Positions 38,890-63,608 of a DNA stretch of 64,000 nucleotides are shown here, piece after piece (the stretch's first letter is position 1; every line of letters starts with the position of its first letter). The translations under genes were made by a program, and so were the position numbers. The DNA is from Strobilurus pachycystidiatus. Its lineage: Eukaryota > Basidiomycota > Agaricomycetes > Agaricales > Physalacriaceae. The stretch is taken from contig JAHLMK010000014.1 of the NCBI GenBank assembly GCA_019915135.1, forward strand, positions 992,001-1,056,000. The letters run 5' to 3'. The notes below the pieces were generated by a model that saw nothing but the letters and a program-made list of their open reading frames with translations, was not told where the DNA came from and searched no databases.

Positions 38890-40720
38890 TGACACGCTTT
38901 ATGCGCGCCTGAGCCTAGAAACCGAGAATTTTGCGATTTCTAGATAAGACTCGAAGCCGAAATGCACGATACATCTAACGAGAGACCATAAGATTGCCAG
39001 TGATAATACGGAGACCTCATTAGGGCAAGAATGAGCCTCCAGGAGAAATTCATCTTCGAATATCACCATCCAAAGTGCCCACTTGATTTATCAAGTCAAC
39101 ATCACGTACACATTCTTAAAGAGGACTCGTCTAAGAAACGAACTCGAGTTCCAAGTAATTCGGACTCGACTTTGTCAGTGTTGTTCATAGACGATTAGGG
39201 TTCGATTAGCTCACTTCCTGCTGATGAGTAGAATGGGGTTAAGCTACAGAATGGTCTAGGTCAGCATAAATGGGGATGAAAGCCCAGTAATGTTATCACA
39301 AGATACAACTATCCCCTTGGAATTCTAAGTCTAGAACCCACGATAGCACAAAATCGAGTAACAGCCGAGCTATTCGAAGAAGCCAATAAAGATAAAGATG
39401 ATCAAGTGTTCTTCATGAATAATCCGCAGTATGCCAAGAGTGTTAAGAATCAAGAAGCCAAGCTTCTTCAGATCTCAGGTGATTAAATCTGACCTGAAAT
39501 CAGTAGAGATTGGAACAAGCAGACAGATTGCGAACAACAAGTCAACGATCTACCATGGATCTTAGAGTGGATTCTTAAGCGAAATGAAGCTCTAGACTCA
39601 ATCAGATAATCGAGACTGAATTGGTGACGCAATCTGAAGAATCCGAGTCGCAAAGAAGCATTCAGAACAATTAAGAGCCAAGAGAAGATGAACCCCATGT
39701 GATAGATTCGACCGATAGCACGCAAGGATGTTGCAATCCGAGCTTGAAATTAGTCAACGTGGATCAACTCTAGAGGGTTCGTCATGAATAAACTGGCATA
39801 ATAAGGAAATGGAAGCGCCTAGACTGGTGTCTACAGCGCGGAAATTAACTCCAAGTGGCTATTAGTTAGTAAGTTAAGATTAGTGTACAGTAGGGACCAG
39901 TTTGTATAAAAGAAGCGTCGATACAGTATAGTAGTTTAGTTTAGTGACCCGCAGCCACGAGCCCACAAAGCTCTACTGTAGTAATCTATCTCTGTACAAA
40001 ATCGAATTCGATTTGCACGCACCCAAAGAAACTCGAATTCGAGTCAAACCTAAGAACCAAAGAACAAACCTAACGCACTAAGAGCAAGGGTTTAGAACAA
40101 AAGTGAACTTAATCGAAGAGCAAAGTTCCTTGAATTCAACGTACTAGAGGCGGTGTTTCTGAGCATAGTATCTCCCTAGAGACACTACAGAGACTTTGCA
40201 GTCTGAGCCAGCCTTTCCCTAGAGAGGACCGTTCAGTCGCGAAAAGCGTTAACCAGCATAACCTCTTGCGAGTTCAAGTGCAATTCGAGCACGATTTGGT
40301 CTAAAACCCACGCAAAACACTCAAACTCAAAGAATAAGCTCCTACCGAGGTTATAAGAAACATACCAAGTGTGGCAGTAGACTATCGTGTTCTTGATACA
40401 ACCCCTCCAGCGCGAGGATTGTGAAAGTCGCATAGTTTAAGTTCAGTCAGAGGCTTGTGTATTGTTCCCTGAAAACCAGACGATTTGTCAATCGGTCAAA
40501 ATCCCTACCACCCCCTTCAAACTCGCACTTTGTGCACACCTACGTTTCTGTTACGCAAGAACCTTGTTTTTCAAGTGTAGTGTTGTAGTAAATCAAGCTC
40601 GATTTTCTATTGCAAAACCCAATATTCCAAAACCGCAGAAACTTTACTCTCATTCGGAGTATTAAGAGTTGTGTTGTTTGTTAGGTGTGATTCTACGCCT
40701 CTAAAATAACGTGCACATCA
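38890..40720 (+). repeat. 5' LTR of giant element
   Basis: 1,831 bp, TG...CA ends. TATAAAAG at 39905-39912 in the context TTTGTATAAAAGA, like the LTR of the smaller element. Contains TCGA-rich palindromes such as ATCGAATTCGAT at about 40008. Confidence 0.95.
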
Positions 40721-41016
40721 ACTTTTTGGAGCCCACCGCGAGGGGGGTCCTATATTTTGATCAACCAAATCGGTGGTCTTTATATCCAAAAACGTCTAAG
40801 AAAGGCAGACAGTCTGCTAAATACACCCGAAGTCAACTAGACGCAAACCCGGAAACACCACCGGTTGCTAGTGGATCTCGAATTGCTCCTGAAGAATCTG
40901 AACTACAAAGTGTCCAAGTAGGAACTAGAAGTTTAAGAAAGAACAGACCACGGGTAGGAGCCCTATTCAACGATCAACCAGAAAAAGTACGGGAAAAAAG
41001 TTCGCAGGTTAGCTGA
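40711..41016 (+). CDS. Short ORF upstream of gag
   Basis: 101 codons overlapping the LTR end; basic, Ser-rich, no domain. The gag frame is itself open from about 41000 to its ATG at 41162 (with a plausible EHPPPIRRRLAPRKSYSDLE stretch), in a different frame from this ORF. They may be one ancestral N-terminal Gag extension separated by an indel or shift near the A6 run at 40994-40999. Confidence 0.35.
   Translation: MHINFLEPTARGVLYFDQPNRWSLYPKTSKKGRQSAKYTRSQLDANPETPPVASGSRIAPEESELQSVQVGTRSLRKNRPRVGALFNDQPEKVREKSSQVS
40727..40744 (+). other. Candidate tRNA primer binding site
   Basis: TGGAGCCCACCGCGAGG begins 6 nt after the 5' LTR. TGG pairs with the CCA end of a tRNA whose acceptor 3' strand would read GGTGGGCT. 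The tRNA identity is unknown to me, and none of the element's own three tRNA-like units matches it. Confidence 0.55.
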
Positions 41017-41161
41017 ACATCCCCCGCCAATTCGAAGAAGATTAGCTCCTAGAAAGAGTTATTCTGATCTTGAACAATCCGAACTCGAATTTCTACTTTT
41101 AAGCCGAGCCTTAGAAAACTACCAAGATCTTTTAAACATTCCTACGTTTATACCTCCAAGA

Positions 41162-42544
41162 ATGACTACTGTTCGAGCGCTAGTCATCGATGAATTTCCT
41201 TCTCTGAAGTGGAGAGAAGACATAAAAGACAAAAAGATACCCAAGTATGGCACCAGCAATGCGCCAAACTTCAATGGAAAATCGGAAAACATAGCCGATT
41301 TTCTAAGGGTGATTGAACAAATCATTGGCGAGTCTGGTATTACGGATGAAGGCACGATGATTGAAATCGCGTGTAACTTTGTGCCAGAAACCATTCGAGA
41401 CCAATGGTTAAATATGCCTACTTTCATTAGAGGAGAGTGGAAAGAATTCAAGTTGGCTTTGTTGTCTAGCTATAACAGAGGCAAAGATGACACCAAGTAT
41501 TCTCTAGACAATCTAGAGGATGCTATTGTCAAATTCGAAAAACGGCCTGTTGACCACAAAGACAGGTGGAATGTTTTTCAAAGAGAAGTACTGCACATAT
41601 TGCGGTACTTAGTTAAGAAGGGTGAAATCACGGACAAGAAAGCCGTGGAAAGAATCCAAGACTGTGTAACAAATGCAGTTTGGGCCAGTACTACTGGTCA
41701 TTTAAGAACCAACAAACCGGCAGCAACAACGGTGTTGGATTGGTACAACAACATCACCAATGTTGTAGGCGCTATTACCAGCGTGTTGGAAGAAACGGCA
41801 GTCTATAGGACCAAAGGGTCCCACAAGACAGAAACCGGTACTTCAAGAGTCAAGACTGAAGATTTGACGGATACCAATAGTGCACTCAATGCACTAAGGG
41901 ATATCCTGATACAATCAGAAAAAGCTAGAGAAAAAGATCGAGTAGAGATGGCGCGCGAGAAGGAAGAAAATCAAAAGAATCATCAACGATTCCTTGATAC
42001 AATCAACGCTTCCTTGTTGAATGCGAGAACAATGAATTACCAAGATACCAATTCGATCTCGAATTTTGTTCAATCGGCACCTATCACTGTTCAACCGCCT
42101 ATGGGTACGAACAGATCCAACCAGATACCCTATACGGGAGGGAACACTGCAAATCCGACTCGAATTTTGCAGAACCCTAACCGTCTGGTACCAGCTGGTC
42201 AAACTACGTCGTATTCACAACCCGGGCGCTGCTTTTTCTGTGAAGAACCTGGTCATATGCGTGATCAGTGTAAGAAAAGATTTGACTTGCAAACGGAAGG
42301 TTGGCTAGTGATTACGGAAGCCAACTGGGACTTTTTCAACAATGGCCTTCCGATTTTAAGAAAGGAAAGGGCTGGTGGAAAGTCACCTTTGCAACAGGTT
42401 CTTAAGTACAAAGAAGATAGTCTTCGAGAAGTTAAAGCGCAAACCACTATTGGGCAAACGGATGACTTCGCACCAGAAGACATGCGTTTGGATACCTCGT
42501 ATGCAAATACTATGGTACCTCACAATCAAGGGGGTTTCAACTGA
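41162..42544 (+). CDS. gag: Gag of giant element
   Basis: 460 aa from ATG 41162. Capsid-like core includes KYGTSNAPNFNGKSENIADF and FIRGEWKEFKLALLSSY. A charged coiled-coil-like region follows (about residues 255-290), then a single zinc knuckle CFFCEEPGHMRDQC (CX2CX4HX4C, about residues 358-371). It ends QGGFN then TGA at 42542-42544. Expected to form the particle and bind element RNA. Confidence 0.9.
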   Translation: MTTVRALVIDEFPSLKWREDIKDKKIPKYGTSNAPNFNGKSENIADFLRVIEQIIGESGITDEGTMIEIACNFVPETIRDQWLNMPTFIRGEWKEFKLALLSSYNRGKDDTKYSLDNLEDAIVKFEKRPVDHKDRWNVFQREVLHILRYLVKKGEITDKKAVERIQDCVTNAVWASTTGHLRTNKPAATTVLDWYNNITNVVGAITSVLEETAVYRTKGSHKTETGTSRVKTEDLTDTNSALNALRDILIQSEKAREKDRVEMAREKEENQKNHQRFLDTINASLLNARTMNYQDTNSISNFVQSAPITVQPPMGTNRSNQIPYTGGNTANPTRILQNPNRLVPAGQTTSYSQPGRCFFCEEPGHMRDQCKKRFDLQTEGWLVITEANWDFFNNGLPILRKERAGGKSPLQQVLKYKEDSLREVKAQTTIGQTDDFAPEDMRLDTSYANTMVPHNQGGFN

Positions 42545-42588
42545 GCTTGATGAAGGAAGAAGATACAGTATCTTTACCGGAAAGCTCA
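42532..42588 (+). promoter_or_regulatory. -1 frameshift signal, gag-protease
   Basis: Heptamer GGGTTTC at 42532-42538, read in Gag as GGT TTC, one sense codon before the TGA. The protease frame (-1) is open from 42466. A 7-bp stem TGAGCTT (42542-42548) with AAGCTCA (42582-42588) follows after 3 nt, with an inner AAGATA/TATCTT hairpin. Confidence 0.7.
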
Positions 42589-43689
42589 TACGCTGTTAAT
42601 ACTCGAAGTCAGAATAAGAATCAGAACGGTTTACAATTTGAAACCGAAATGCCTAAGACTACAGTACCGACTAAGACGGTATGGCCAAGACAGAGGGTCA
42701 CGGTAGAAATACCAAAGCGACCTACTACAACAGTTCAACCTAAGCAAGTTAGCTTTGAAGATAAAGGTGAAGAAGACAGTTCATCTGACGAAGAGTCAGA
42801 AGGTGGGGAAGTTGAAAAGCAAGTAAAAGACGCTGCTAATCAACCAGAACCGAAAATCGAACTCGATTTACCTAAATCTTCCACGGTAGATTCAACTCTA
42901 CCTAAAATAGAAAAGTTCAAGTCGTACAAAAGAAAATCGGAAATCGATTTGCTTCTTGAAGAAAATCCTCAATGGAAAGAAGCTTGGAAGGAACTTTTAC
43001 CAGAGAAGTTACTTGCAACTAACATTGAGTGGCGAAAGAACCTAGAGAAATTGTTAAAGACAAGGAATGTTAAGACTACCTCTAAGCATGTCTATTCGAT
43101 TTCACAAATCGAGTCTGAAGAGGTCCCTAAAGGGTCAATAGTCGTACAAGATCCTATAGAACAATTTTTCAACACGACGCAATTTCAAGGACCATACCAT
43201 GTCTCTAAGTTGTACATGGCACCAGAAAGTGTAGACCTCAGAACCCTATGGTTAAGAATCAACCATGGAAATCGAAAAGAGTGTCTCCTAGACGGGGGAT
43301 CACAGATTGCCTCGATGTCTCTCAAGACAGCATTTGAGCTCGGTTTAGCGTACGACCCAAGTTTTAAGATCACTATGGAAAGTGCAGATAAAGGAAGAAC
43401 GGTAACATTAGGCTTAGCGCGAAATGTACCGGTAAACTGTGAAGGAATCGTGTATTACCTTCAGTTTCACATTCTACAAGATCCTGCCTATGACATTCTA
43501 CTGGGTAGACCGTTTGAGACTGTGTCTCAAGCAAGCCTACAAACGTCGGCGGCCGGTCTAACCACAGTAACTGTTGTAGACCCAGGGAATGGCCAAAGAA
43601 TGACTTTACCCACTTATGCAAGGGGTCAGATACCAAGTCATCAAACTAAGGCTGAACCCGTGGGTTTTCACCCAAACTCGAGGACTTGA
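42547..43689 (+). CDS. Protease polyprotein segment of giant element
   Basis: About 380 codons in the -1 frame relative to gag. An acidic/basic linker is followed by an aspartic protease domain: CLLDGGSQIASM (catalytic D of the DGG/DSG motif, about residue 257) and YDILLGRPF near its end. An ATG at 42550 follows the gag stop by 5 nt, so reinitiation is an alternative to frameshifting, but the slippery heptamer in correct phase favours a -1 shift. Stop TGA 43687-43689. Confidence 0.85.
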   Translation: MMKEEDTVSLPESSYAVNTRSQNKNQNGLQFETEMPKTTVPTKTVWPRQRVTVEIPKRPTTTVQPKQVSFEDKGEEDSSSDEESEGGEVEKQVKDAANQPEPKIELDLPKSSTVDSTLPKIEKFKSYKRKSEIDLLLEENPQWKEAWKELLPEKLLATNIEWRKNLEKLLKTRNVKTTSKHVYSISQIESEEVPKGSIVVQDPIEQFFNTTQFQGPYHVSKLYMAPESVDLRTLWLRINHGNRKECLLDGGSQIASMSLKTAFELGLAYDPSFKITMESADKGRTVTLGLARNVPVNCEGIVYYLQFHILQDPAYDILLGRPFETVSQASLQTSAAGLTTVTVVDPGNGQRMTLPTYARGQIPSHQTKAEPVGFHPNSRT

Positions 43690-46600
43690 ACGAATATCAA
43701 GGAGAGTTGGCATTGGTGATTGAAAAGGGTCTGAATGGTGAAATCAAGATTAAGCAAACGTATGTTCCAAATGGTGGGCAGGACACGTTTGACCCAGAAG
43801 CAATAACTAGTCTGTACCTTCGAAAATCCTCGGATAGAGTGAATCAACTAGTAAAACCAATTCGAAATCAGTATCGATTTATAAAACAAGGAGTGGAACC
43901 GTTCATGGTAACACCACCTAGTAAATCGAATTCGATTTTCCCTACTAAAGAAGTATTTGGTTTTAAGAAGTTGTTCGATATTCGAAAAGAGAAATTCGAC
44001 TTGGATTTGCCAGAAATCAAAGCCATGTCTACCATGGACATGTTTTATGGCGTACCTAATGGACTAGAAGAAGTGTTCAGTAATTTCAAGGTATCAATGC
44101 CTATAGATTATGTTGGACAAGCAAGAAAGGAATTCCTTTCGAATATCAAGGAAGAAAGAAGTAGTCGGGGAGTATTTGCTACGAAGAAATATAAACCCGT
44201 ACACTTGAAGACCAAGGCTCACTTAGGAACCTTACCAGAAGAATTTCGGATTCAACGACATATTGTAGGAGATCCCTTAAAAGATATGCCTCAGTTATCG
44301 GAAAATCCGCCCGAATTTGTACCAACTGGACGCTATACAGCGGAACGTAGGGAACAGATTCAAGATGACCATACTGGAGATTTCCTATGGCCGGAAGAAC
44401 GGAAACTGTTGGACCATTTTATGTGTCTACAGAATGAAGGATTTGCTTGGGATGAAACAGAAAAGGGGAAATTCAGAGAGGATTTCTTCCCGCCTGTTGA
44501 TATGCCAGTAATACCTCATACTCCTTGGGTGTTAAAGAACATACCTATACCGCCAGGAATCTATGAAGAAGTATGCAAGATCATAAAACACAAAATCGAT
44601 TCGGGAGTATACGAGCCTTCGAACTCGTCGTATAGAAGTCGATGGTTTTGTGTTGTCAAGAAAGATGGAAAGAAACTGAGATTAGTCCATAGTCTGGAAC
44701 CGTTGAACGCGGTTACCATTGCTCACTCAGGTCTACCTCCAGCCACTGAAGAATTAGCAGAGGCTTTTGCGGGTTTGTCTTGCGGAGGGACATTAGATTT
44801 GTATGTAGGATACGATGAAAGAATGTTGGCCACTAGCAGTCGCGATATGACTACATTTTCTACACCGTATGGAGCATTAAGACTAAGAACCTTGCCTATG
44901 GGATGGACCAATTCGGTTCCGATTTTCCATGACGATGTAACTTACATCTTAAGAGACGAGATACCAGCTTTTACACGACCTTATATTGACGATGTGCCAG
45001 TAAAAGGACCAAGTAGCAGGTATCAACAAGCAGATGGTACTTACGAAACCCTCAAATCGAACCCGAAAATCCGCCGGTTCATTTGGGAACACTTTTGTAA
45101 CATGAATCGTATTGTCCAGCGTATGAAATATGCTGGAGGTACTTTTTCAGGTTTGAAAGCGGTTATCTGTGCTGAAGAAATCACTGTAGTTGGACATGTA
45201 TGTACATACTATGGAAGAAAACCAGCGGAAGAAAGAGTAAAGGTCATTTCAGACTGGCCCGCTTGTCAATCGCTTACTGAAGTACGATCGTTCTTAGGAA
45301 CGGCTGGAATCTTTAGGGCGTTTGTTAAGGATTACTCTAAGAAAGCTCGACCGTTGACTTATTTGACTAAGAAGATCATACCCTTTAAGTGGGGAGATGA
45401 AGAACAAGCAAGTATGGACGAGTTAAAAAGAGCAATAGAGACTTGCCCCATGTTAAAACCTTTAAGATATGACTGGGATACTCCAATCATTCTATCTGTG
45501 GATACTTCATATCAAGCAGTAGGGTTTTATCTGTCGCAATTCGATCCCGAAGAACCTAAGAAGCAGTACTTTGCGAAATTCATGTCGATTACCTTGAATG
45601 AGCGAGAAGCTAGATATTCGCAAGCGAAAAGAGAATTGTTTGGCTTGTATCGGGCTTTGATGCACTGCAAATATTACTTGCTAGGATGTCGAAAGCTGAA
45701 AATCGAAGTGGATGCCAAATACATTAAAGGAATGTTGTCGAACGTTGACTCATTGGCGAATGCTAATTTACAACGTTGGGCAGAAGAAATTTTGATGTAT
45801 CACTTTACCTTAGTACATGTGCCAGGTAAAGTACATGGTCCAGACGGTTTAAGCAGAAGACCCAGTTCAGAACTAGATATACAAGTTCCTAGACCAGATA
45901 TTGATGAAGAAGAAGATGTTCTTCATATGTTTGAGTACGAAGAACCTGAAGACATAGAACTGAAAGATAAACCGGAACCGTTCGATTCATTCAAAGATTT
46001 GATTGATAATCGAAAAGGTTTTGCTCAGACAATTGTAAATTCGAGCTCGGTTTTCTGGCCTGGCAAGTATAAAGAACAAAGAGACTTAGCTCTTAGCGGA
46101 GCAGTTTCGATTGAAGAACTAGAAGGATGGCTAGCAATGGATGAATTCCCAGCGTTACCTCGCAGTAAACGAGAAACTAACTGGGAGCTTCTTTTGCCTT
46201 ATATGCAAGATTATATACTTGATCCTGAGAAGGAATTTGTGTCGCTAACGGAATCAGAAGTAACCCAATTACAAGAGTGGAGCAAAGATTTCTTTATCCG
46301 ACATGAAAAGCTATATAAGAAAGATAAGGATGGAGCACATAAGAGAGTAATACAAAAATCGAGTCGATTTGCTATTGTAAAACGACTGCATGACTCGAAT
46401 GGACATAAAGGCCAATACTCAGTGCTTCAGCTAGTCAAGAAGAGATTTTGGTGGCCTGGATTGGACACTGATATCAAATGGTATACGAAGACTTGCATAC
46501 TATGCCAGAAGAGACAAAAGACCCTTATAAGGACCGAACCTGTGATTACTTCAACACCTGGTATATTTGAGCGAGCCTATATTGACACGTTTCGAATGCC

Positions 46601-47570
46601 AAAATCGGGTTCGAGTTCCTCAAAGGTTGATAAATACAAAGACTATAACGCAGTAACCGTAGCAAGGTGTGGACTCACTGGATGGCCAGAAGCTCGAGCG
46701 TTGAAGGTAGAAAACTCAGAAACGCTAGGTGAATGGATATTCGAAGACATACTATGCAGATGGGGTTGTCTTAAGGAAATCGTAACCGATAATGGTCCAG
46801 CGATCCTAAAAGCTATACGTTATATTGAAGACAAGTATGGTATAAAGGGTATTGCAATCACGCCGTACAACAAGACGGCTAACGGAAAAGTAGAAAGAGG
46901 ACATTGGGATATCAGACAGTCACTATTCAAAGTTTGCAAAGGCAATCCTGAACAATGGCCGCAATTCCTCCATGAAATTCTTTGGGCTGAAAGAATCACA
47001 GTCAAAAGATCCATAGGAACGTCCCCCTTTTACGCTGTAACAGGTTGCGATCCCATTCTACCATTAGATTTGGAAGAAGTAACTTGGTTAGTGGATACAC
47101 CAGATAAAATCGTATCGACATCCGATTTACTAGCTTATCGAGCAAAACAGCTCATCAAGCACAAGGAAGATGTAAAAGAAATGAAGAAGCGAGTTACCCT
47201 CAACAAGAAGAAAGCAGCTTCGAAATTCATGGATGATTTTGTCAATAGCATTCCTCGTTATCAATTCGATACTGGAGATTTGGTATTGGTAAGAAACACT
47301 AGAATTGAGAAGGAAATGAACGCAAAGTTCAAAGAAAGGTTCATGGGACCATATGCTGTAGTGGCAAGAACTACTGCAAATAATTACATCTTGTGCGAAC
47401 TAGATGGCACTGTATTGAAAGACAAAATCGCTCAATTTAGGGTCATACCGTTCTACTCAAGAAAAGAACCTATTTTCTTGGGGTATAAATTCTTTGAAGC
47501 ACTTAAGAGAATCAAGGAAGGCGCTAAGAAAATAGTAGATGACTTGTCAAAGATGGGTAGAAAAGATTAA
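43656..47570 (+). CDS. pol: Pol of giant element (RT, RNase H, integrase)
   Basis: Open from 43656; 1,294 codons counted from 43686. Reverse transcriptase includes SSYRSRWFCVVKKDGKKLRL and the catalytic RPYIDDVPV (~residue 433). RNase H begins LSVDTSYQAVG (~604) and includes GPDGLSRR. Integrase has a zinc finger (H-x-H then CILC, ~900-945), core residues D (AYIDTFR ~966), D (TDNGP ~1035) and E (VERGHW ~1069), then a GPY-type module (FMGPYAVV). No chromodomain. The first ATG is some 70 codons in, consistent with frameshift expression. Frame and catalytic residues look intact. Confidence 0.92.
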   Translation, partial: TRGFSPKLEDLNEYQGELALVIEKGLNGEIKIKQTYVPNGGQDTFDPEAITSLYLRKSSDRVNQLVKPIRNQYRFIKQGVEPFMVTPPSKSNSIFPTKEVFGFKKLFDIRKEKFDLDLPEIKAMSTMDMFYGVPNGLEEVFSNFKVSMPIDYVGQARKEFLSNIKEERSSRGVFATKKYKPVHLKTKAHLGTLPEEFRIQRHIVGDPLKDMPQLSENPPEFVPTGRYTAERREQIQDDHTGDFLWPEERKLLDHFMCLQNEGFAWDETEKGKFREDFFPPVDMPVIPHTPWVLKNIPIPPGIYEEVCKIIKHKIDSGVYEPSNSSYRSRWFCVVKKDGKKLRLVHSLEPLNAVTIAHSGLPPATEELAEAFAGLSCGGTLDLYVGYDERMLATSSRDMTTFSTPYGALRLRTLPMGWTNSVPIFHDDVTYILRDEIPAFTRPYIDDVPVKGPSSRYQQADGTYETLKSNPKIRRFIWEHFCNMNRIVQRMKYAGGTFSGLKAVICAEEITVVGHVCTYYGRKPAEERVKVISDWPACQSLTEVRSFLGTAGIFRAFVKDYSKKARPLTYLTKKIIPFKWGDEEQASMDELKRAIETCPMLKPLRYDWDTPIILSVDTSYQAVGFYLSQFDPEEPKKQYFAKFMSITLNEREARYSQAKRELFGLYRALMHCKYYLLGCRKLKIEVDAKYIKGMLSNVDSLANANLQRWAEEILMYHFTLVHVPGKVHGPDGLSRRPSSELDIQVPRPDIDEEEDVLHMFEYEEPEDIELKDKPEPFDSFKDLIDNRKGFAQTIVNSSSVFWPGKYKEQRDLALSGAVSIEELEGWLAMDEFPALPRSKRETNWELLLPYMQDYILDPEKEFVSLTESEVTQLQEWSKDFFIRHEKLYKKDKDGAHKRVIQKSSRFAIVKRLHDSNGHKGQYSVLQLVKKRFWWPGLDTDIKWYTKTCILCQKRQKTLIRTEPVITSTPGIFERAYIDTFRMPKSGSSSSKVDKYKDYNAVTVARCGLTGWPEARALKVENSETLGEWIFEDILCRWGCLKEIVTDNGPAILKAIRYIEDKYGIKGIAITPYNKTANGKVERGHWDIRQSLFKVCKGNPEQWPQFLHEILWAERITVKRSIGTSPFYAVTGCDPILPLDLEEVTWLVDTPDKIVSTSDLLAYRAKQLIKHKEDVKEMKKRVTLNKKKAASKFMDDFVNSIPRYQFDTGDLVLVRNTRIEKEMNAKFKERFMGPYAVVARTTANNYILCELDGTVLKDKIAQFRVIPFYSRKEPIFLGYKFFEALKRIKEGAKKIVDDLSKMGRKD
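43662..43710 (+). promoter_or_regulatory. -1 frameshift signal, protease-pol
   Basis: Heptamer GGGTTTT at 43662-43668, read as GGT TTT in the protease frame, 18 nt before its stop. Pol (-1) is open from 43656 and has no ATG near its start. CCAAACTC (43672-43679) can pair with GAGTTGG (43704-43710) with one bulge. Confidence 0.75.
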
Positions 47571-47738: not shown

Positions 47739-47818
47739 TGGTCATATTGGGAATCGAACCCAAGTCCCCCCTAGAATTCTAAGAGAATAGGGGGATGCGA
47801 CCATTACACCATATGACC
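47739..47818 (-). tRNA. tRNA-like unit 1 (Glu-like)
   Basis: Minus strand, 80 nt. Acceptor arms GGTCATA / TATGACC pair fully, then A. D-arm TGGTGTAATGG and T-arm GGTTCGATTCC fit Pol III A- and B-boxes. The anticodon arm is lengthened (CCCCCTA with TAGGGGG, 14-nt loop), as if about 7-9 nt were inserted; a CTC or TCT anticodon is possible. A T5 terminator lies 25-29 nt downstream (47710-47714). Confidence 0.55.
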
Positions 47819-47905
47819 TTAAAGTACAAGAAGGATTGGTGAATCCCCTGAGCCAAAATTCCATCGAAAAAGAAAAAGATCAGATGCCGAAGCCGCAAAC
47901 TAAAG

Positions 47906-47995
47906 TGGCGTCACTTGGATTTGAACCAAGATCCCTCCTGGCAACACTGAAGCCCGGAATACTCGAGGAGGATGTTACCATTACACCATGATGCC
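47906..47995 (-). tRNA. tRNA-like unit 2 (Gly-like)
   Basis: Minus strand, 90 nt. Acceptor GGCATCA / TGACGCC has one mismatch; D-arm TGGTGTAATGGTAACAT; T-arm CTTGGTTCAAATCCAAG. TTGCCA before GGAGG looks like a Gly GCC anticodon loop, with about 18 extra nt on its 5' side. T5 runs lie 29-39 nt downstream (47867-47877). Confidence 0.5.
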
Positions 47996-48128: not shown

Positions 48129-48201
48129 GGGACATAAGTGGATTCGAACCAACTGAAATCTATCACAATAGATAGATGTGTTACCACTACACAATATGGC
48201 C
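48129..48201 (-). tRNA. tRNA-like unit 3 (Gln-like, degenerate)
   Basis: Minus strand, 73 nt, the canonical length. Acceptor GGCCATA / TATGTCC with one mismatch; D-arm GTGTAGTGGTAACAC; B-box GGTTCGAATCC. The anticodon stem pairs (ATCTATC/GATAGAT) but the loop is not 7 nt, and the T-stem has a mismatch. A T5 run follows at 48101-48105. Confidence 0.45.
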
Positions 48202-51040: not shown

Positions 51041-52078
51041 ATCGAATTCGATTTGACATTACCAGTCGGATTACTTTGACTTACTATTGGGACTTGAACT
51101 TTTTCTTACCCCTAGTTGAAATTCATATACGATTTTCTTGAACTAGACAGACTTAGGGTGCAGTAAGCCTCGAATAAGCCAAAAACAAAACGTTCTCGGT
51201 TTGCTTAGCACTATAAGAAAGAAGGGTTCGAATAGCTATGAAAAGATAGAAAATCGAAGAAATTTCGAAAAACGAGTACAAACGAAGTCAAAAATCAAGA
51301 AATACTGTAACGCTTTATTGTGTGGTCGGTTTGACTTGAGCTTAGTTGGAAAGTTGTTCGAAATCAAAAATAAGCCCCTCAGTTTTTTCGCACGAAGCCT
51401 GGGGAGCGCCGTACGCAGAGATATTAAAGAAGTGACCTTAAAAGGCCCATAGAAGGTTTCCTGCCAAGATACGGACTGTTTCGAAGCTCACAACACTCCT
51501 TCGTGGAGCCAATCGGTCAATTTGGGGCCAAACGGAGTATTTTGCCTTTTCTGGCGCGGAAAATGATCCAATCGACGATCGGACTTCAGATTTGGAATCC
51601 TGGCATCGATATCTACCAGAATCACTTTTCAAAGTGAAAAACGGTCTATTCCTTACTGTCGGTCTAATGGGGTAAAGAAAGTTTAAAATCGATGGGGGCC
51701 AATTCGAGTTTGATTTGACCTGGGTACATTTGGACAAGTAAGAAACATAAGGGTCATAGAAAAGAAAAGCTTCAGAGCCTAGTAAAGCACTAAGGAATTG
51801 GCAAAATACGCTGTAAGATTAGAGAATTGAAGAAAATCATACTCGATTTTCTTAGCTATCACCAGAGAAAGTTACCAAGAAAAAGAAGAAATATTCAAGC
51901 TCGAATATCAAGATAATCAGCCTAGAAATAAAGGGGCAAAATCAAGTGCTTAAGAAGGGTCAGGAAGCGCTGGAGATGAGATCTATGACCTAAATAGGCA
52001 AGAATCTAGATCGTTCGAAGGCGCTGATCCATAAACGTGTGCAACTGCGCATGTCGGACTTAGAAATTCGAGTCAGAA
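51041..52078. other. Spacer between cargo genes A and B
   Basis: No gene supported on either strand. AT-rich with scattered TTCGA/TCGAA words. Confidence 0.5.
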
Positions 52079-52130
52079 GAAGTTGTCACCGTCGGGTACT
52101 CGGAAAGCGATAATCGGTGTCGTATAAAAG
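52079..52130 (+). promoter_or_regulatory. Promoter module of cargo gene B
   Basis: GAAGTTGT, then CGTCGGGTACTCGGA (52079-52104) and TATAAAAG at 52123-52130; the ATG is 118 nt further on. A run of C (about 52150-52161) lies in the leader. Confidence 0.7.
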
Positions 52131-53938: not shown

Positions 53939-53953
53939 AAAGTTAAAGGGAGA
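53939..53953 (+). other. Second copy of the polypurine tract
   Basis: AAAGTTAAAGGGAGA, identical to the 15 nt directly before the 3' LTR (61763-61777). It could be a central priming site or mark an older element end. Confidence 0.6.
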
Positions 53954-54308
53954 CATATAAGAAATGTAACTACTCCCTCCAATGTGGCTCTATACAAAAG
54001 TGTCGAAACAAAGGACTGTTACCTCTATTATACAGCCTAGTATAAAAAGTATAAAGTTGTTCAGGCAACAAGGAAGCTACAACGTGTTGTAAGAGGCGAA
54101 TGTCCGCAGCAGAGGCAGTTGACCAAGTAATTTCCCAAAAACGTTTAGGTATATTGGGAAAATCCTGGTCGATAAGCCTGTTAAGAAAGAAGTCAGAAAT
54201 TCGAATTCGAGTTTCTAACAAATGCTTACGTGGGATATATAGGGCCTGCAGCATTAAGACCTTGGCGAAGAGTAGAGCATCTGGAAACACCATATGGAAT
54301 CGAAGTAA

Positions 54309-57300
54309 TTTAAAGAGATCAAAAGCCTCTCAAAGGTTGTCAAGCTCCGAAGCAGCCAAAATGCTTGACACAAAGGTTAAGTGAGACATGTGTTTCAAAG
54401 CACTATGAGACACTTTTCATAGCTTATTCAGAGCTTTCTGAGTCTTATAAAGTCAGTGAATCCATGAACCTTTGTGTCAAGCTCTTATGTGGTGCTCCAG
54501 TAGTGCCTTTGTAATGCTTTTCAAGCCTCGTGAAATACGTGTGTCTATGAACCTTCTAGTAAAGCTCTTCAAGAGTGCTCTCATACAGCTCATCAAATCA
54601 CAACAAAGTTCATATAAGAACAGCATAGACTTTCAAAACACTTAGCAAACCGTTCACGGGACACCGCAAGCAACTAAAAAGCACTGATAGCAATCGATCG
54701 ACAAAGAGACAATTTTGATCTACAAATGAATGATCGACAAAACACTGAATTATCTCCAAATAATACATGGTGTACAACGTAGTACTAGGTATATAAGTAG
54801 GTAGTCCTCCCCCTTGCTCTGCAGGCCGACCACAGTAAACGTGTCTAACAGAATCAGTCGTTGGGCTGGCCCAAACTCCATCCTCGGGCTTGGTGTGGCG
54901 CGTGATGATCCTGGTCGTCGTGGGTGATTGTTGTAATGAGCCTCGTCCTAGCCCGTCGTGATGGTCCTCGTCCTGGTCGGTGGCATGGGTCTGGGCTTGC
55001 GCGATATGCTCAGGCTTATGTCTTGCTTGTCCTCGGTTGTCGTGCTCGTGTGAGTTCCTCGTCCTCGTTCGTCGTGCTCATCTCGGTCACACTGCTCGTT
55101 CTTACTCATACTCGTTCGCATCCTGGTGTGTTGCGCTCGCCTTCGTATGTTGGAGTCCTCGTCCTCGTGCGTGGCGCTCGTCCTCGTGAGTTGGACTCGT
55201 CATGCATCAGCGTCGGTTCCTTGTCCGTTAGCATCGTGCTGCTCGTCTTGCTGCTCAGTCGTCGCATGTCGTAGTCGTCCGTTGTGTATCCTCCGTGGTG
55301 GTAGCCATACCCGCTAGGTCAATCCCATCACATGCTATGGTGACTGAGTTGTAAGTTGATAGAACTTGAGATGAAAGGAGCACGCACCCGGACGGGAACG
55401 CCATACTGCTGGCATTTGTATGAGGCGACGTCGTCAAGTGGTGTGCGCTAGGCATCACCACCAGTGGTGGATAGCTGGGCGCTAGGCCTCAGCAGAGATA
55501 GACGACTGTGCGCTGGGCGTCAGTCATCGTTGGGTATTGCGGGCGGAGGGATGGTGGTGGAAGAGAATGAAGGAGGAAACGGAACGATCGACAAATTTAA
55601 ACCAACCGGCACGTGAGGCTGACGTGGCCTCAAGTGCCGGCGGCATGCGGACTTGGGAGATTTTTTGAAGGTGGTGGGAGTGCGAGGGCAGTATGTAGGT
55701 AGAAAGAAAAAAATAAAAGAGAGTAATTGAAAGAACGCACCAGCTGTGCGGCCGTCTGCCCGCCCTCCCACCTCCGCCTTTGCTCATCCCGCCTCCTCCT
55801 CTGTCTCCGCCTCTGCACGTGCTCCCTCAACCCCACCTGCCCGTGCCCGAACCCAGCGCCGTGGCACCCCAGGAAATCACGTCTGGGGGCCACTACAGTG
55901 TCGTCGTCGTCCTGCGCCTGGAATGCAGCGTCGGCGTCGACGGCTTACGCGCTGAAAGAGTTCCGAACGTCATCCATGGCTGTCGGTAGCCGTGGAGACG
56001 TTGGCGAAGGTCCAGAGGCGATGAGGAGAGGGCCAGAGAGAGAACAGAGACCCCAGACATAAGTCTGGGGCTGGATGGCACGTCGTCGTAGACGTGCCAT
56101 CGTCGTAAGAAGCAAGCGAAGACGAGCCAAAGCTCGCGATCACGATCCGGCAAACGCCGGATCGTGAACGGAACGTCTTCGACGTCGCTCGGAACGACGA
56201 CGACGGTCCCGGATCAGCGTCGGAACCGTCGGAAGACGCAACTACATTGCGTGTGGACGATATACAAGCAAGTTTGGACACTTGCGTATAGCGAGAGGCG
56301 GGAACTCACCTTACGTGGTGAGTTCCCCATTCACAGTCTGACCGGACGTGCTCTGCAGCCCGCTGCCATGCGCCGGCTTGCCTGAATTCACTCAGAATAA
56401 ACTTTACACATTATATCCTTCCTCTCGAGCTTGAAATCGGGGCAGCCGCTGCCCATCTCAGCTTGCGTTGAACGTCAGAATCACTCGAACGTCGAGTTCG
56501 AGTGACCTACACTACACGGTAAGTCTTTTCCCTTCCACTTTTTGTGAACTTGCACGATAGCTTGGTACATATCACAGGACCGTGCACGCTGATTTTCAGC
56601 CTCCCCCGACGACGCGCTCCGCCGCTATCGTCGACGCCGTTCGCCAGATTTGGCGCCGGCGACACGGTCCGCAAATCCGACCACTGTTCGGATTCGCTGA
56701 CTTGCCCTTACTCCACCACCATCGACTCGCGAACACGCCCATCGACTCGCGAACACGCCCGCGAACAGGCCCACGACGCCCAACGACGACTGGAACTCTG
56801 GATGCCGACCGCAGGGCGCGGTACCTCGGCCTCTGCCACAGACATGAAGGAGGAAGACGTCGCGTAAGCCCCCGTCAAGCGGGCAGCACTACTCTGAGCA
56901 CGTCGAGCAGCGTCCTGCTCGACGACTTCGATGCGGAGCCACCCAGCCGTGCCGGCGAGCACGAATTAGGCGCGGGGGCGGGGATTATGGGCATCCGGTG
57001 CGTATCTCTTCCCATTCTTTTATCTTGCATATCTTATTCAATTGACGTCGACGGCAGCGACGCCGTCGACGTCCCATTATTCTACTGACTATTTTTTCAG
57101 ACCGGACATACCTCGCAGCAGCCGCGAATGCGGCGCCACTACCTCCCAAGCACATTCGACACCGTGCACGCACCACTACTCCCGACCGATAAGGCACGCA
57201 AACCCCCGTCAGGCGGGCAGCTGGCGGTTCGACATCGAGGACGTCGAGCAGCGTCCTGCTCGACGACAACGACGACAATGTGCCCCATGCCGTGCCGGCG

Positions 57301-58633
57301 AGCACGCTTCAAGAGCAGGGGCGGGGACTTTTGGCGCCAGGTGCGTATATTTTAATTATTGCTCATTTTCGCGATTCGCCCGACGTCGGCGGCGCTCGAG
57401 GTGCCGTCGACGTCCCATGTATCTATGTACTGACCAATTCCCAGGCTGGTTACCACACGCCGGCGATTGCCTCAGGCTCGTGGCCTTCGCCTTCGACTCC
57501 GTCCTCGATTGCACAGCGTGCCGCCCTCTGCCTCAGCATACACCTGCCATCCCATCCCTCCTGCCCCACCTACCTCCGACGCACTTGCACTCGCACTCTG
57601 CGCTGTGTGGCCGCTACGGCCGCCATACAGCGCGGATGCGAGGGCGCGCCATCATGTCGGGCTCGGCGCGGGCCGCACACTTGTGCAGCTCGCCGCCACC
57701 CAACACGAATACGGCCGAACCCCTCCTTCCCTTCCGCCTCCATGAACCTCCATATCCCTCATGATCCGGTCATTTGGCGCACGGGCCCTGGTCTGTGCGC
57801 AACATGTCATCGCATTTATACCCCCGGCAACTCGGAGCCCGTCCTGTTTGACCACCACCACCACCCGTTGCCGCCGCACCTAGCACATTCCCGGTCCGTT
57901 TCGCGATGCCGCTGTTGCAAACACAGAAGTCCGCCGGAAAACGTGCCAGACAACAAGAGGCCGAGAGGCGATACGAGACGGCACATGCCGAAGAACGATG
58001 CGAGAAGAAGCGCGCCGCGGCTCAACGGTTGTGTCAGTGTTTTCTTGTCCGTGTATCATACTCATTATAGTTAGTCGCCGCAAGAGTATGTCTGCAACAG
58101 AGCGAGAAGAACTCCGTGCTCGGCAACGTGATTATGCAGCCAAGTACCGTGCAAAACATCGCGGGCACCTGCGAGGTCAAGGTGGTGTCCAACGCTTCCA
58201 GTATGTACTTTTTTCTTCAACTCAAAAATTTACTTATCTATTCCTCACAGTCTCAACCCCAATGCTCTACCTCGTCAAGGAAAGCTACAGTATCCTGAAC
58301 AATACACGGAGCGGCACTTTATGCGTCATGAGGTCCTGAACAAGACCAAGATCATACGCCGACAAGAACTTAAGGAGGGCACGGCAATTCATTGATGAGG
58401 ATGTGAACTTTCTATCAGATACTTTCATGTAGCTAGAAGTATTTGCAAGGACTTATATATGAGTGATGAGAAAGCTCATGAATTGATACGTTCTGAAGTG
58501 AATGGAGAATATACACTTGTTTGATAGTATTTTCAGATGTGTTCAAGTACTTCAAGCTAGTTGTACAGGTGATGTCTGCTTCGATACACTTTGAAGTGCT
58601 TTGAGCAGTTATAAGTACTTTGACAGCTTTAAA
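54309..58633. mobile_element. Nested 4.3-kb insertion of unknown class
   Basis: TTTAAA occurs at both borders (54309-54314 and 58628-58633), a candidate TTAA- or TTTAAA-type duplication. Ends are AGAGATCAAA and, inverted, AGCTGTCAAA (7 of 10 bases shared). The interior is GC-rich and unlike the AT-rich host element. It holds a 16-bp inverted repeat near the left end (54363-54378 and 54467-54482), CCTCGTCCTCG-type low complexity (54915-55250) and plus-strand exon-like pieces. No transposase was recognised, so it may be a non-autonomous element or captured host DNA. Confidence 0.55.
56544..58400 (+). other. Exon-like pieces inside the nested insertion
   Basis: Several GT-AG introns can be drawn. 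A block with CCCCCGTCA(A/G)GCGGGCAG, the hairpin GTCGAGCAG/CTGCTCGAC and GTGCGTAT occurs twice (about 56866-57006 and 57203-57348). A last region (57900-58200) encodes basic helical sequence such as ARQRDYAAKYRAKHRGHLRG. Frames cannot be joined confidently; probably a decaying gene. Confidence 0.35.
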
Positions 58634-59917
58634 ACCACTGTTTCTGATATATGTGCTTATGAATACTTGGATCCCATAAGGCGTTTCCTGATGAGAAACT
58701 GAACTCGCGATCCCGAAATAGTCCTTGACTACCAGGCATAGGGTCAAGAACCCGGTCTTCATAGAACCGTGGAATCCAAGTAATCAGCTCGCGAATGTAC
58801 ACTGGAATGCCTCGCGTGGAGGGAGGGATGCTGCGCATCCATTCGACGTCCTCGGGTGACATTATGGTGTTCAAGTACCGAGGCAATGATTGTTCGGTAG
58901 AAAAGAACGCGGTTTCCTATGAAGTGATAAGAAAATCGATCTCGAATTTCTAAGCCAAGAAAAATAACATACCAAAGATCGCATGGTAACCGCTAGGAAC
59001 TTCTCTCGAAATTCACCAAATGACAAGTGAATAATCGACTCGGGTAAGATATGGGGAAGAGTAACCCCGTCCAATCCTCGAAGCGGTTCCTCGTGAAAGA
59101 AGGACATCACAAGATGCCAACAGAGAATGTACATAGACAAAAAGCTATTTTCCACACCACGAGCAGTAACGGGGGCAACATGTCGCCATAAGTTACTGTA
59201 GCGTCGCTAGGAGGATAGTCAGAGAAATTCGAACAAGGAATGCTAGCTCGATTTTCTCACCAGCACATACACCATATACCGCAAGGTAGGAACGTCCAAG
59301 TTACCGTGGTGTCCACCAAAGAAAAGATGACGATCCGTATGGAAAGCCGTCTCTCGATGATCCACGTCGCCCAAGCTACCGTCGGGCTCTCGTTCCACCA
59401 TCACAAAGTCGCGGTGTACGCTATAAAGATCCAGAGCGGACGCAACCGCTAATTCAGCCTCGAGAAACACGGCAACATCGTCGGGAATAATGGCGAAGCT
59501 GGAGTGAAGATTGCGGAACCTAAGTTCGCAGAGAAAAGGGAAATTCATCTGAGTCATGGTGATGAATGTCCACCACTCGAAAAGATCAAATTTATAAGAA
59601 TCGAGAAGAAAGGTACCAAACCGATTAAGAAAAGAACCAAGACCTAAGTAAAGAAACCAATAGGAGATAATCAAACCCGAATTTCTCGGGTCCGATTATC
59701 GAATCCAAGATCAAGAGTAAGAATGTCTATATGCAGACCGACAGATAATAATACATGCGCGAGTAGACTAAAAAGATAAAGGTCCGTCGCGTAAGCCCCA
59801 AGCCTCCGGTACACTAGTCACAGTTCAAGCCAAGATTTCCGACTAGTTACTTTGTAAAGAACAAGTCATCAATTACTTATGCTAAGAAGTATCAATGATG
59901 ACTTGGCTCCCGATGAT

Positions 59918-61518
59918 CTAAGGGACCAAAGAATCAGTCGCGGCCAGGTACAGGTCCCTCGTGCGCAGGAAGGTTTGAACCTCCCCGTGAGCCCTGTTCA
60001 TGGTCAAGGACAACTCGTGGCGATAGCCGTGTTCCGCGGCTACCATCGACGCGGAAAGAGCCAAGTCCGCGGGAAGCGCAGCCAAGATCTGCATTCTGCG
60101 AACAATGGCAGAACTGGCACCTTGGTAAGCGTTGACCAACTGAGCGGCTGTCAAGAAAACAAATTCGAGTTAGATACACCCAAAATCGAAATCGAATTTG
60201 TTACTCACTAGAAGACAACTGATCAATGAGGACGGGTTCGATGTTAAACCCAGCGGGTTTAAGAGCCTTGGCCATCCTCTTGGATTCAGGAAGAGCAACA
60301 GTGGCCTTGCGCTTGGGAGCCGTCTCCAACTGAGCAGTAGGAATGGATCCCGACGTCGCCACAGCCTTGTGATACAAGGAAGAATTAGTATCCAGGCCGG
60401 GTACTTCACAATAGTAAAGATATTTTACCGAGCGAGCAGACTATATAGAAGTCAAAAATCGAGCTCGAAAAGCTAAAGAGCCAATAACTCACGGCTTCAG
60501 AGGCTGTAGAAGCGGGAGGTGTAGCAACCTCGACCACTTCTTCATCGCTATCCTCTTCGTCGGAAGACTCCACGGAGAGCTGTTTAAGAAAAGCAGCCAG
60601 ATCAGCCTCGTAATCTAGACCGAAAAGGCATCAGAAGCTTACTTCGGAGTCGGAAGAGTTTACTTCACCCATTTCTGAATGATCATCAGCCCATTGGAAG
60701 CCATTAGTAAAAGAAGATTTACTAATGTCGCCAGAGGCAAATCGAATAGGATCGTCCAGAACGGTGGAAGAAGAAGAAGCCTTCTATAACATAAGACATA
60801 AGAAATTCGAACTCGAAACACAGAAAATCGAAATACGAACCAGAACCTTGAGCTTGTTCTTACCCTTGGGTTCGGGAGATTTAGCCTTCTCCTTACCCTT
60901 GGAAGAGGAAGCCTCGATGAGTTTCTTCCATTTGGGATGGAGGGGATGGATCGAAGGAAGGCTGGCAGCTTCCGCCGCGATAGTACCCTTCTTGGTGCAA
61001 GTCATGACGAACGCGTTAAGCACGTTGGCCAGGTTAACGGTATGCAAGTGAGGGCTGACACCCAACTCGGAAACCGCCAAACCTAAGAACGAGCGAAGAT
61101 TGCAGGAAAACGTGGCGAGCTTCTCGGGATAGATGCAACCGGAGACGTTGTCCTTGGGAAGGTTCGCTCCCTTATAAAGATTTTAGAAAATCGAGCACGA
61201 ATTCATAAGAAGAGAAAATCGACTCACAAGAACCTTGATGATGACCATGTCCAAAGACGCGGCCTTATCCTTGGCGGAAGCCTTGGAGCGGTCCATGTAC
61301 TCGACCGATTTAAGGACCAAGGGACAGAGGCTGTTGTAAAGCGTCAAGACGGCGGGAACCAAACCCGTAGCAGGCGGATCCCAATATTTAATATGGATGA
61401 AGAGCGCTTTGCCATCAGCGAGGCGACGTTCAACTAGCTCGGGAACGGTGTCGGGAGCCTCATCAGGGATAAGGTTGACGATTCCGGTCCACGATTTCTT
61501 GGAAACAAGAGAAGGCAT
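59918..61518 (-). CDS. Cargo gene D, antisense, hypothetical protein
   Basis: Minus strand. Exons 61228-61518, 60841-61170, 60669-60783, 60493-60614, an optional 12-nt micro-exon 60429-60440, 60209-60365 and 59918-60147; all phases agree; 414 aa (418 with the micro-exon). The N-terminal ~210 residues form a globular unknown (SWTGIVNLIPDEAPDTVPEL, IYPEKLATFSCNLRSFLGL, HTVNLANVLNAFVMTCTKKG). Then a Lys/Ser-rich linker, an acidic segment (SSDEEDSDEEVVEV), a basic KRKA patch and a helical C-terminus (ALPADLALSASMVAAEHGY). Divided like genes A and B into globular, low-complexity and helical parts but without cysteines. The start is 260 bp inside the 3' LTR. Confidence 0.75.
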
Positions 61519-61762
61519 TGTGAGAAGTGTAGAAGAATTTCGAGGGTGAAATGGTTAGCAGGTGCTGGGGCAAATTGACCAGAAACCGCCGACTATTTAA
61601 CCAAGTTGCAAAGATAACACGAAGACCCAGCGAGCGCTTTGTTCGCGCCAACTGGAGTTGGGATTGCATCCGTGCAGACAAAACCCGAAGAGAGAACCAG
61701 AAAAATAAGCGAAATGAATTATGGTTCAGGGTGAAGATCTTGATGTTGCGGACAACATATCG

Positions 61763-61777
61763 AAAGTTAAAGGGAGA
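61763..61777 (+). other. Polypurine tract
   Basis: AAAGTTAAAGGGAGA ends directly at the first base of the 3' LTR, the normal position for plus-strand priming. Confidence 0.8.
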
Positions 61778-63608
61778 TGACACGCTTTATGCGCGCCTGA
61801 GCCTAGAAACCGAGAATTTTGCGATTTCTAGATAAGACTCGAAGCCGAAATGCACGATACATCTAACGAGAGACCATAAGATTGCCAGTGATAATACGGA
61901 GACCTCATTAGGGCAAGAATGAGCCTCCAGGAGAAATTCATCTTCGAATATCACCATCCAAAGTGCCCACTTGATTTATCAAGTCAACATCACGTACACA
62001 TTCTTAAAGAGGACTCGTCTAAGAAACGAACTCGAGTTCCAAGTAATTCGGACTCGACTTTGTCAGTGTTGTTCATAGACGATTAGGGTTCGATTAGCTC
62101 ACTTCCTGCTGATGAGTAGAATGGGGTTAAGCTACAGAATGGTCTAGGTCAGCATAAATGGGGATGAAAGCCCAGTAATGTTATCACAAGATACAACTAT
62201 CCCCTTGGAATTCTAAGTCTAGAACCCACGATAGCACAAAATCGAGTAACAGCCGAGCTATTCGAAGAAGCCAATAAAGATAAAGATGATCAAGTGTTCT
62301 TCATGAATAATCCGCAGTATGCCAAGAGTGTTAAGAATCAAGAAGCCAAGCTTCTTCAGATCTCAGGTGATTAAATCTGACCTGAAATCAGTAGAGATTG
62401 GAACAAGCAGACAGATTGCGAACAACAAGTCAACGATCTACCATGGATCTTAGAGTGGATTCTTAAGCGAAATGAAGCTCTAGACTCAATCAGATAATCG
62501 AGACTGAATTGGTGACGCAATCTGAAGAATCCGAGTCGCAAAGAAGCATTCAGAACAATTAAGAGCCAAGAGAAGATGAACCCCATGTGATAGATTCGAC
62601 CGATAGCACGCAAGGATGTTGCAATCCGAGCTTGAAATTAGTCAACGTGGATCAACTCTAGAGGGTTCGTCATGAATAAACTGGCATAATAAGGAAATGG
62701 AAGCGCCTAGACTGGTGTCTACAGCGCGGAAATTAACTCCAAGTGGCTATTAGTTAGTAAGTTAAGATTAGTGTACAGTAGGGACCAGTTTGTATAAAAG
62801 AAGCGTCGATACAGTATAGTAGTTTAGTTTAGTGACCCGCAGCCACGAGCCCACAAAGCTCTACTGTAGTAATCTATCTCTGTACAAAATCGAATTCGAT
62901 TTGCACGCACCCAAAGAAACTCGAATTCGAGTCAAACCTAAGAACCAAAGAACAAACCTAACGCACTAAGAGCAAGGGTTTAGAACAAAAGTGAACTTAA
63001 TCGAAGAGCAAAGTTCCTTGAATTCAACGTACTAGAGGCGGTGTTTCTGAGCATAGTATCTCCCTAGAGACACTACAGAGACTTTGCAGTCTGAGCCAGC
63101 CTTTCCCTAGAGAGGACCGTTCAGTCGCGAAAAGCGTTAACCAGCATAACCTCTTGCGAGTTCAAGTGCAATTCGAGCACGATTTGGTCTAAAACCCACG
63201 CAAAACACTCAAACTCAAAGAATAAGCTCCTACCGAGGTTATAAGAAACATACCAAGTGTGGCAGTAGACTATCGTGTTCTTGATACAACCCCTCCAGCG
63301 CGAGGATTGTGAAAGTCGCATAGTTTAAGTTCAGTCAGAGGCTTGTGTATTGTTCCCTGAAAACCAGACGATTTGTCAATCGGTCAAAATCCCTACCACC
63401 CCCTTCAAACTCGCACTTTGTGCACACCTACGTTTCTGTTACGCAAGAACCTTGTTTTTCAAGTGTAGTGTTGTAGTAAATCAAGCTCGATTTTCTATTG
63501 CAAAACCCAATATTCCAAAACCGCAGAAACTTTACTCTCATTCGGAGTATTAAGAGTTGTGTTGTTTGTTAGGTGTGATTCTACGCCTCTAAAATAACGT
63601 GCACATCA
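61778..63608 (+). repeat. 3' LTR of giant element
   Basis: 1,831 bp, same ends and length as the 5' LTR; no difference seen. Confidence 0.95.

Follow-up and report, generated by a model that had tools for sequence, protein, structure and literature searches.

Several kinds of retroelement that far exceed 10 kb and have extra coding capacity are known, including the plant Ogre elements, whose size comes largely from their long terminal repeats (LTRs) and which have one or two extra open reading frames (ORFs), the planarian Burro, whose extra domains are tied to apoptosis and ubiquitination, and the Penelope-like Terminons of rotifers (PMC6431247). In bdelloid LTR elements with an ORF3, extra ORFs follow pol, are common to families and have spliced messages; these ORF3s are env-like or encode an esterase or exonuclease, and the sole mention of "antisense" in the text consulted concerns small RNAs (PMC5408684). 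Among fungi, a 2011 survey of LTR elements mentions complex elements with extra domains arising via multiple insertions, and the terms antisense and intron are absent from its main text (PMC3248453). Plant Retand elements already provide an example of antisense extra ORFs, which are described as having no known function (PMC7264820, PMC11963269); the main text on Retand uses neither the word intron nor the word tRNA (PMC11963269). In Arabidopsis, the protein VANC21 binds a family-specific motif in the noncoding parts of VANDAL21 (PMC5735166). In this study, we analyzed a stretch of 64,000 nucleotides from the fungus Strobilurus pachycystidiatus (the window; assembly GCA_019915135.1, contig JAHLMK010000014.1, positions 992,001 to 1,056,000) that contains an LTR element at positions 38,890 to 63,608. 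Like Ogre, Burro and Terminons, it is far larger than 10 kb and has extra coding capacity, and as in the bdelloid elements its extra genes follow pol, recur in different families and are spliced.

The element belongs to the Ty3/Gypsy type of LTR retrotransposons, measures about 20.35 kb and has, 3' of pol, an accessory module that has long been retained, through many rounds of movement. Self-alignment of its LTRs revealed 1831 identical positions out of 1831, without a gap and at an offset of 22,888, which agrees with a previous sequence-only reading of this DNA. The LTRs start with TGACAC and end with ACATCA, and a 4-bp GCGC target duplication borders the element on either side, so that direct LTRs, TG..CA ends and a short target duplication are all present. 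Between the LTRs we found gag-protease-pol, three antisense tRNA-like units, and two sense (A and B) and two antisense (C and D) spliced genes (Table 1). The same reading had described a single mobile unit of 24.7 kb with about 14 kb of extra sequence. Our results supported a single unit with a genuine common gene set but not this length, because positions 54278-58693 are a separate, later insert of 4,416 bp. In the 51.8-Mb, 61-contig assembly searched here (the window belongs to contig C14), a near-identical copy of the insert is present at C3:2840329-2844744, with partial relatives elsewhere. The flanks of the insert directly adjoin each other at 17 other places, and the uninterrupted site could be read in 11 of 21 family loci (L032-L052, exact strings; seven of the remaining ten had neither search string in the tested orientation and three had only one). 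A true size of 24.7 kb was therefore excluded; after subtraction of the insert, the usual copy is about 20.35 kb long and the element's own extra DNA amounts to about 10 kb, not 14 kb. The insert has imperfect terminal inverted repeats, and the one insert ORF tested against Pfam gave no match.

About 20 copies of this element (family 1) exist in the genome. The LTR search scored the best 40 of 62 candidates, 30 of which could be joined into 15 pairs (a possible further pair on C18, 42 kb apart, was left out of the count). Twelve pairs were spaced 18.45-18.98 kb and none closer, whereas three were longer: the window copy, one on C1 (30.8 kb) and one on C9 (24.5 kb). Copies with gag-pol alone, which would have spoken against a common gene set, were absent among these 15 pairs, all spaced at least 18.45 kb. 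The C/D block was complete in 22 of 25 matches (95-100% identity), the A/B block was near-complete in 16 places (97-100%) with damaged copies besides, and of the 18 family 1 rows for pol (among the best 36 of 459 candidates), 10 were full-length without a stop. It is extremely improbable that the structure reflects an assembly artefact or a chance enclosure of unrelated genes by LTRs. Some contig ends are doubtful, since C21, C22, C26 and C30 start at a copy or close to one, the 5' flank of C21 is the same as that of C22, and the flanks disagree in three of 12 LTR pairs; however, 4-bp target duplications agree in the other nine pairs, and the recurrence of the same gene order in about 20 places on many contigs rules this explanation out. 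Within a pair, the LTRs show 0-3 substitutions and 0-2 gap columns, and the recent movement suggested earlier is borne out by six of the 12 pairs tested, which show no difference at all. Family 1 integration seems to prefer NCGN: CG was central in all 31 host-side 4-mers (about 18 sites; GCGC, GCGT, ACGC, GCGG, CCGT and others), compared with CG at 7.2% of positions in the window's flank.

Some further observations concern copies and neighbouring elements. C26:249279-251109 (L026) is a solo LTR with ACGC on either side, as expected from LTR recombination. Contigs C21 and C22, which begin near copies L017 and L015 with a common 5' flank, indicate that some contig ends may be assembly duplicates. 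In the window itself, positions 30641-36624 hold a second, small LTR element, in which 419-bp repeats (99.8%) enclose a chromodomain Ty3/Gypsy pol.

The exon-intron models of genes A-D were built by hand. All four genes that had been proposed, two sense and two antisense, could be modelled with introns, and the models of C and D are backed by an excess of silent over replacement changes per site among copies. Each gene has a TATA-like AT-rich match 39-125 bases upstream of its ATG, the loosest being that of C (TTAAATA). The usual end of D, altered in the window copy, was present in 12 of 13 loci tried. A and B have a Cys-rich C-terminal domain and a coiled coil in common (30% identity, E 1e-15); they are probably DNA-binding proteins, and we infer that they bind as dimers. 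Zn2Cys6 domains have six cysteines spaced CX2CX6CX5-12CX2CX6-8C. The spacing in A and B resembles this arrangement with a longer middle loop, and the Pfam Zn_clus match of A was weak (E 0.58 only; low-confidence model). Nothing reliable was obtained by searching NCBIfam with single exons of A, B and the sense gene of a sister family (family 2), or PDB sequences with the C-terminal exons of A and B. At 51503/51504, many other copies have about 60-240 extra bases of varying length, with short neighbour repeats in both orientations.

To evaluate selection, we used the ratio of the computed replacement and silent rates (pN/pS) across the seven copies that diverge most (L046-L052, at 95.5-98.6% identity; L045, with 515 gap columns, was excluded); these rows share ancestry and are not independent. 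Purifying selection was strong on C and moderate on D: pN/pS was 0.03-0.20 for C in all seven copies and 0.08-0.36 for D in six of seven. Silent changes in C outnumbered replacements by 26 to 3 in L050, 35.8 to 12.2 in L051 (13.5 to 11.5 for D) and 36 to 23 in L052. Stops were found in three of 21 rows (in C of L047, in D of L048, and one each in C and D of L052). Even between families, where silent sites approach saturation (pS 0.63-0.88), C and D can still be recognised (pN 0.32-0.49). Gene A was judged by its open frame only, the main exon being stop-free in 17 of 20 rows.

The same module layout was observed in sister families. Family 2, with a pol 68-69% identical to that of family 1 (18 rows among the best 36 of 459 candidates), is represented by copy L056, whose 3' half was read: a sense gene encoding about 600 aa, in which the Cys pattern is similar, is followed by antisense homologues of D (E 2e-9) and C (E 3e-9), a purine tract and the LTR, with strand and order as in family 1. 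Because a family with a pol at 69% has a sense Cys-rich gene and antisense D and C in the same layout, the accessory module is old. Family 2 LTRs form 13 neighbouring pairs among the best 40 of 206 candidates, five at 14.70-14.74 kb and the rest at 10.2-19.1 kb. Among the best 101 of 208 matches to C, family 4 (15 copies; sense protein 41-45% identical to that of family 2) has an antisense C 1.96-2.01 kb from the sense gene in at least nine of 15 copies, and family 3 has C at 54-55% in three places. These data also bear on the possibility that the cargo consists of captured host genes carried as passengers. Introns and promoter-like boxes of their own do give A-D the look of cellular genes, but the genome matches listed for A all belong to family 1 copies or their B genes, those listed for C all fall in copies of the element or in multicopy sister families, purifying selection on C and D is seen across copies, and a family with a 31% different pol has the module too. 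Host-gene capture is therefore very unlikely.

A short family-specific motif is dispersed over the noncoding parts of the elements. In family 1 it is the palindrome TCGA-N2-TCGA. Compared with dinucleotide shuffles, TCGANNTCGA occurred 17 times in noncoding DNA (6,745 bp; 0.14 expected, at most 2 in 50 shuffles), 6 times in coding DNA (0.2 expected) and 3 times in the host flank (38,889 bp; 1.84 expected). TCGA was present in 13 of 16 introns (base shuffles predict 2.5 and, in 2000 of them, never exceeded 8), and palindromes were also observed in antisense-gene introns, spacers and LTRs. TTCGANNTCGAA had 280 sites in the genome versus 100 for the reversed control; 29 of the first 50 sites listed lie within four family 1 copies, corresponding to 307 versus 2.9 per Mb elsewhere. 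In family 2 noncoding DNA (2,981 bp, stretches chosen by the analyst) TCGANNTCGA was absent and AAGGTC was the leading motif (18 versus 2.2 expected; strands 9:9), which is non-palindromic and has no fixed inverted spacing. Family 4 (972 bp, of which 401 are partly coding) yielded a weak signal akin to that of family 2, CTAAGG (6 versus 0.5, reached in 0 of 300 shuffles). When the younger window copy serves as the ancestral reference, all 28 changes at CpGs inside TCGA in older copies, and 24 of 25 at CpGs elsewhere, were C>T or G>A (52 of 53); these two groups of sites changed 4.8 and 2.8 times as fast as others, respectively. This nearly exclusive direction of change points to CpG methylation of the older copies.

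As proposed earlier, gag-protease-pol frames are present; RNase H (579-715) and the integrase zinc-binding domain H2C2 (900-955) passed the Pfam cut-offs, whereas the zinc knuckle and the protease remained below them. Pfam RVT_1 did not match the pol frame and the reverse transcriptase (RT) was recognised by its YIDD motif alone; pol is therefore divergent. With these qualifications (protease-like frame below cut-off, RT via YIDD), the order protease, RT, RNase H, integrase is that of Ty3/Gypsy elements. A putative primer binding site and a polypurine tract, as in LTR retrotransposons, are also present. The primer-site-like sequence 3' of the 5' LTR is TGGAGCCCACCGCGAG. Its 13-mer AGCCCACCGCGAG has 138 occurrences in the genome versus 4 for the reversed control and is also found upstream of family 2 and family 4 genes (e.g., C10:745773 and C1:1072702); because of this common 13-mer, families 1, 2 and 4 seem to share a primer. 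The second copy of the polypurine-tract region at 53939-53953 could be the trace of a former end of the element or a second site where the plus strand starts. The three RNA polymerase III (Pol III)-like units reported earlier were recovered as minus-strand tRNA models, above the search cut-off of 29 bits. Their 3' ends mismatch the primer site by eye, and none is an obvious self-encoded primer. No tRNA match was found in the 3' half of L056 of family 2.

Table 1. Features of the element and its nested insert (positions in the window)
Feature	Coordinates	Strand	Details
5' LTR	38890..40720	+	1831 bp; preceded by GCGC (38886-38889)
Putative primer binding site	40727..40747	+	TGG AGCCCACCGCGAG...; starts six bases past 5' LTR
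gag frame (stop to stop)	40958..42544	+	zinc-knuckle-like motif under Pfam cut-off
Protease frame	42466..43689	+	aspartyl protease-like stretch under Pfam cut-off
pol	43656..47570	+	RT YIDD motif, RNase H, integrase zinc-binding domain; Ty3/Gypsy order
tRNA-like unit 1	47739..47818	-	44.7 bits; A and B box patterns; T5 24 nt downstream
tRNA-like unit 2	47906..47995	-	43.2 bits; long anticodon-arm insert; A and B box patterns; T5 28 nt downstream
tRNA-like unit 3	48129..48201	-	41.0 bits; B box pattern, no A box match; T5 23 nt downstream
Gene A	48840..51040	+	648 aa, 5 introns; C-X2-C-X6-C...C-X2-C-X6-C domain and coiled coil; TATATA at 48741
Gene B	52248..53706	+	432 aa, 3 introns; C-terminal type as in A; TATAAA at 52123
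Polypurine-tract-region copy	53939..53953	+	exact 15 bases, between genes B and D
Nested insert	54278..58693		4416 bp, foreign to element; 2-bp AG duplication; inverted ends CATC(T/A)GGAAAC
Gene D	58694..59557	-	antisense; 2 introns; final residues changed here by nested insert
Gene C	59918..61518	-	antisense; 415 aa, 6 introns
Polypurine tract	61763..61777	+	AAAGGGAGA; adjoins 3' LTR
3' LTR	61778..63608	+	same sequence as 5' LTR; followed by GCGC (63609-63612)

What might such a module do? Since A and B look DNA-binding, the motif is family-specific and mainly noncoding, copies look methylated and VANC21 offers a parallel, we propose, with a probability of roughly 0.4, that A and/or B would bind TCGA-N2-TCGA in the introns, spacers and LTRs of their own family and, together with C and D, would prevent CpG methylation or heterochromatin from closing the element's chromatin, as VANC does in VANDAL. 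Independent internal promoters would allow the regulators to be produced while gag-pol is silent, and an unspliced, LTR-driven genomic RNA would bring the introns along. tRNA genes can have a barrier role, and the tRNA-like units, added in one family, may act as Pol III/TFIIIC barriers separating gag-pol from the module. We infer that anti-silencing or chromatin control deserves the largest share among the possible functions, with RNA-level roles and LTR activation as its rivals.

A number of observations weigh against this proposal. First, the Pfam scan assigned A-D to no family at cut-off, and the structure model of the Cys domain was poor (pLDDT 35-63, versus 78-93 in the coiled coil blocks; the main exon of A folded without alignment gave a pLDDT of 36), so that the case for DNA binding consists of the Cys pattern and the coiled coil. 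Second, BLAST could not align A or B with the family 2 sense protein (best E 0.06), and no clear motif emerged in 2,701 bp of family 3. Third, the motif was not clearly conserved among family 1 copies. Motif positions in introns changed more than others (28/585 versus 89/2627, or 0.048 versus 0.034), those in spacers about as much (3/210 versus 73/4103), and the C and G of TCGA were the fastest-changing positions. The T and A of TCGA were unchanged (0/265, versus 3/370 for bases beside other CpGs, a difference that is unconvincing), and in LTRs they changed in 1/1020 cases versus 125/49340 for other bases. Fourth, D of L046 had a pN of 0.014 and a pS of 0.018 (pN/pS 0.78). Finally, in the 11.8-kb class of family 2 (two of two pairs) pol is kept and only about 0.72 kb separates the sense gene from the LTR; this space implies copies without C and D, so these two genes are dispensable, at least with helpers.

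The introns themselves are open to another explanation, since hairpin formation is an alternative for some of them. Relative to shuffles, A intron 3 (z -4.4), A intron 5 (z -4.6) and B intron 2 (z -3.2) fold far more stably, and several stable introns pair part of the 5' splice site. The accessory genes could then be selected for replication rather than for an effect on chromatin, by taking the unspliced genomic RNA out of the nucleus or shielding it, or by a part in particle structure or packaging, with the palindromes serving as hairpins of an intron-retaining RNA. That sense-strand introns are retained in copies, the exons of A matching as separate pieces, means that the genomic RNA must escape splicing, and CERV of the LTR element Cer1 is needed to export genomic RNA (PMC10309623). 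On the other hand, the mean z was -1.5 (n=16) with z above -1 in seven of 16 introns, the palindromes are also found in antisense-gene introns, spacers and LTRs, and the AAGGTC motif of family 2, non-palindromic and equal on both strands with no fixed inverted spacing, fits a DNA signal better. We consider such an RNA-level role unlikely.

Regulation of a different kind, with no effect on silencing, appears rather unlikely as well: A and B might activate the LTR in the manner of Tat or Tax, and C and D might exert an antisense control like that of HBZ. Two palindromes do lie within the LTR, and antisense genes are known in human T-cell leukaemia virus (HTLV), with a regulatory role proposed for those of Retand (PMC11963269). 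However, most palindromes are intronic or lie in spacers, at a great distance from the LTR promoter, which resembles VANC targets rather than promoter operators.

If the anti-silencing proposal is true, sequence-specific anti-silencing evolved on two occasions, once in DNA transposons of plants and once in retrotransposons of fungi, with fungi offering a simple system in which to examine how a selfish element rewrites its own chromatin. The broader idea, that this fungal LTR lineage has its own sequence-specific anti-silencing convergent with VANDAL/VANC, in which element proteins would recognise a motif that every family has spread over its introns, spacers and LTRs, and that the motif changes with the protein between sister families, is tentative and on balance somewhat unlikely. 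Even without the mechanism, selected sense and antisense spliced genes survive reverse transcription, which raises the questions of how genomic RNA escapes splicing and what the antisense genes do; sister families with and without the antisense pair in one genome make the latter role testable.

The sequence-only reading had regarded this cargo as unparalleled, which could not be upheld in view of the antisense extra ORFs of plant Retand elements. According to the parts of the reports used here (PMC11963269, PMC7264820), Retand and Grande, both plant Ty3/Gypsy elements, are similar to the present element in having a long region between pol and the 3' LTR with conserved antisense ORFs, the position that C and D occupy as well. 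These plant ORFs often have predicted DNA-binding ability, the region contains family-specific repeats, and Grande has its own antisense promoter, just as TATA-like boxes lie upstream of the antisense genes here. In contrast, the Retand region measures 2.9-6.6 kb and nearly always has an antisense TRP28, whereas here it spans about 10 kb and a Pfam scan of C and D for TRP28 (PF04195), the domain typical of Retand/Tat, found no match. As in VANDAL21 with VANC21, accessory proteins are encoded by the element, and short motifs are dense in its introns and spacers, rare elsewhere and different between related families (PMC5735166, PMC10398659, in the parts consulted). This dense noncoding motif is strong in family 1, replaced by another in family 2 and weak in family 4. 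VANDALs, however, are DNA transposons whose VANC proteins have DUF1985/DUF287 and whose motif arrays keep one orientation (PMC5735166, PMC10398659); here we have an LTR element, a Cys-cluster protein and palindromic motifs, the Pfam scan of A-D gave no match to DUF1985/DUF287, and the likeness is one of sequence features. A gene set of this kind is not described for Ogre, Burro or Terminons in the sections of PMC6431247 consulted, and none was found for a fungal LTR element in literature screened by title and start of abstract, with subscription journals mostly outside this screen. Within the compared portions of this literature, the present element goes beyond the known systems in combining four multi-intron genes, two in sense and two in antisense, with three tRNA-like units and a noncoding motif specific to the family.

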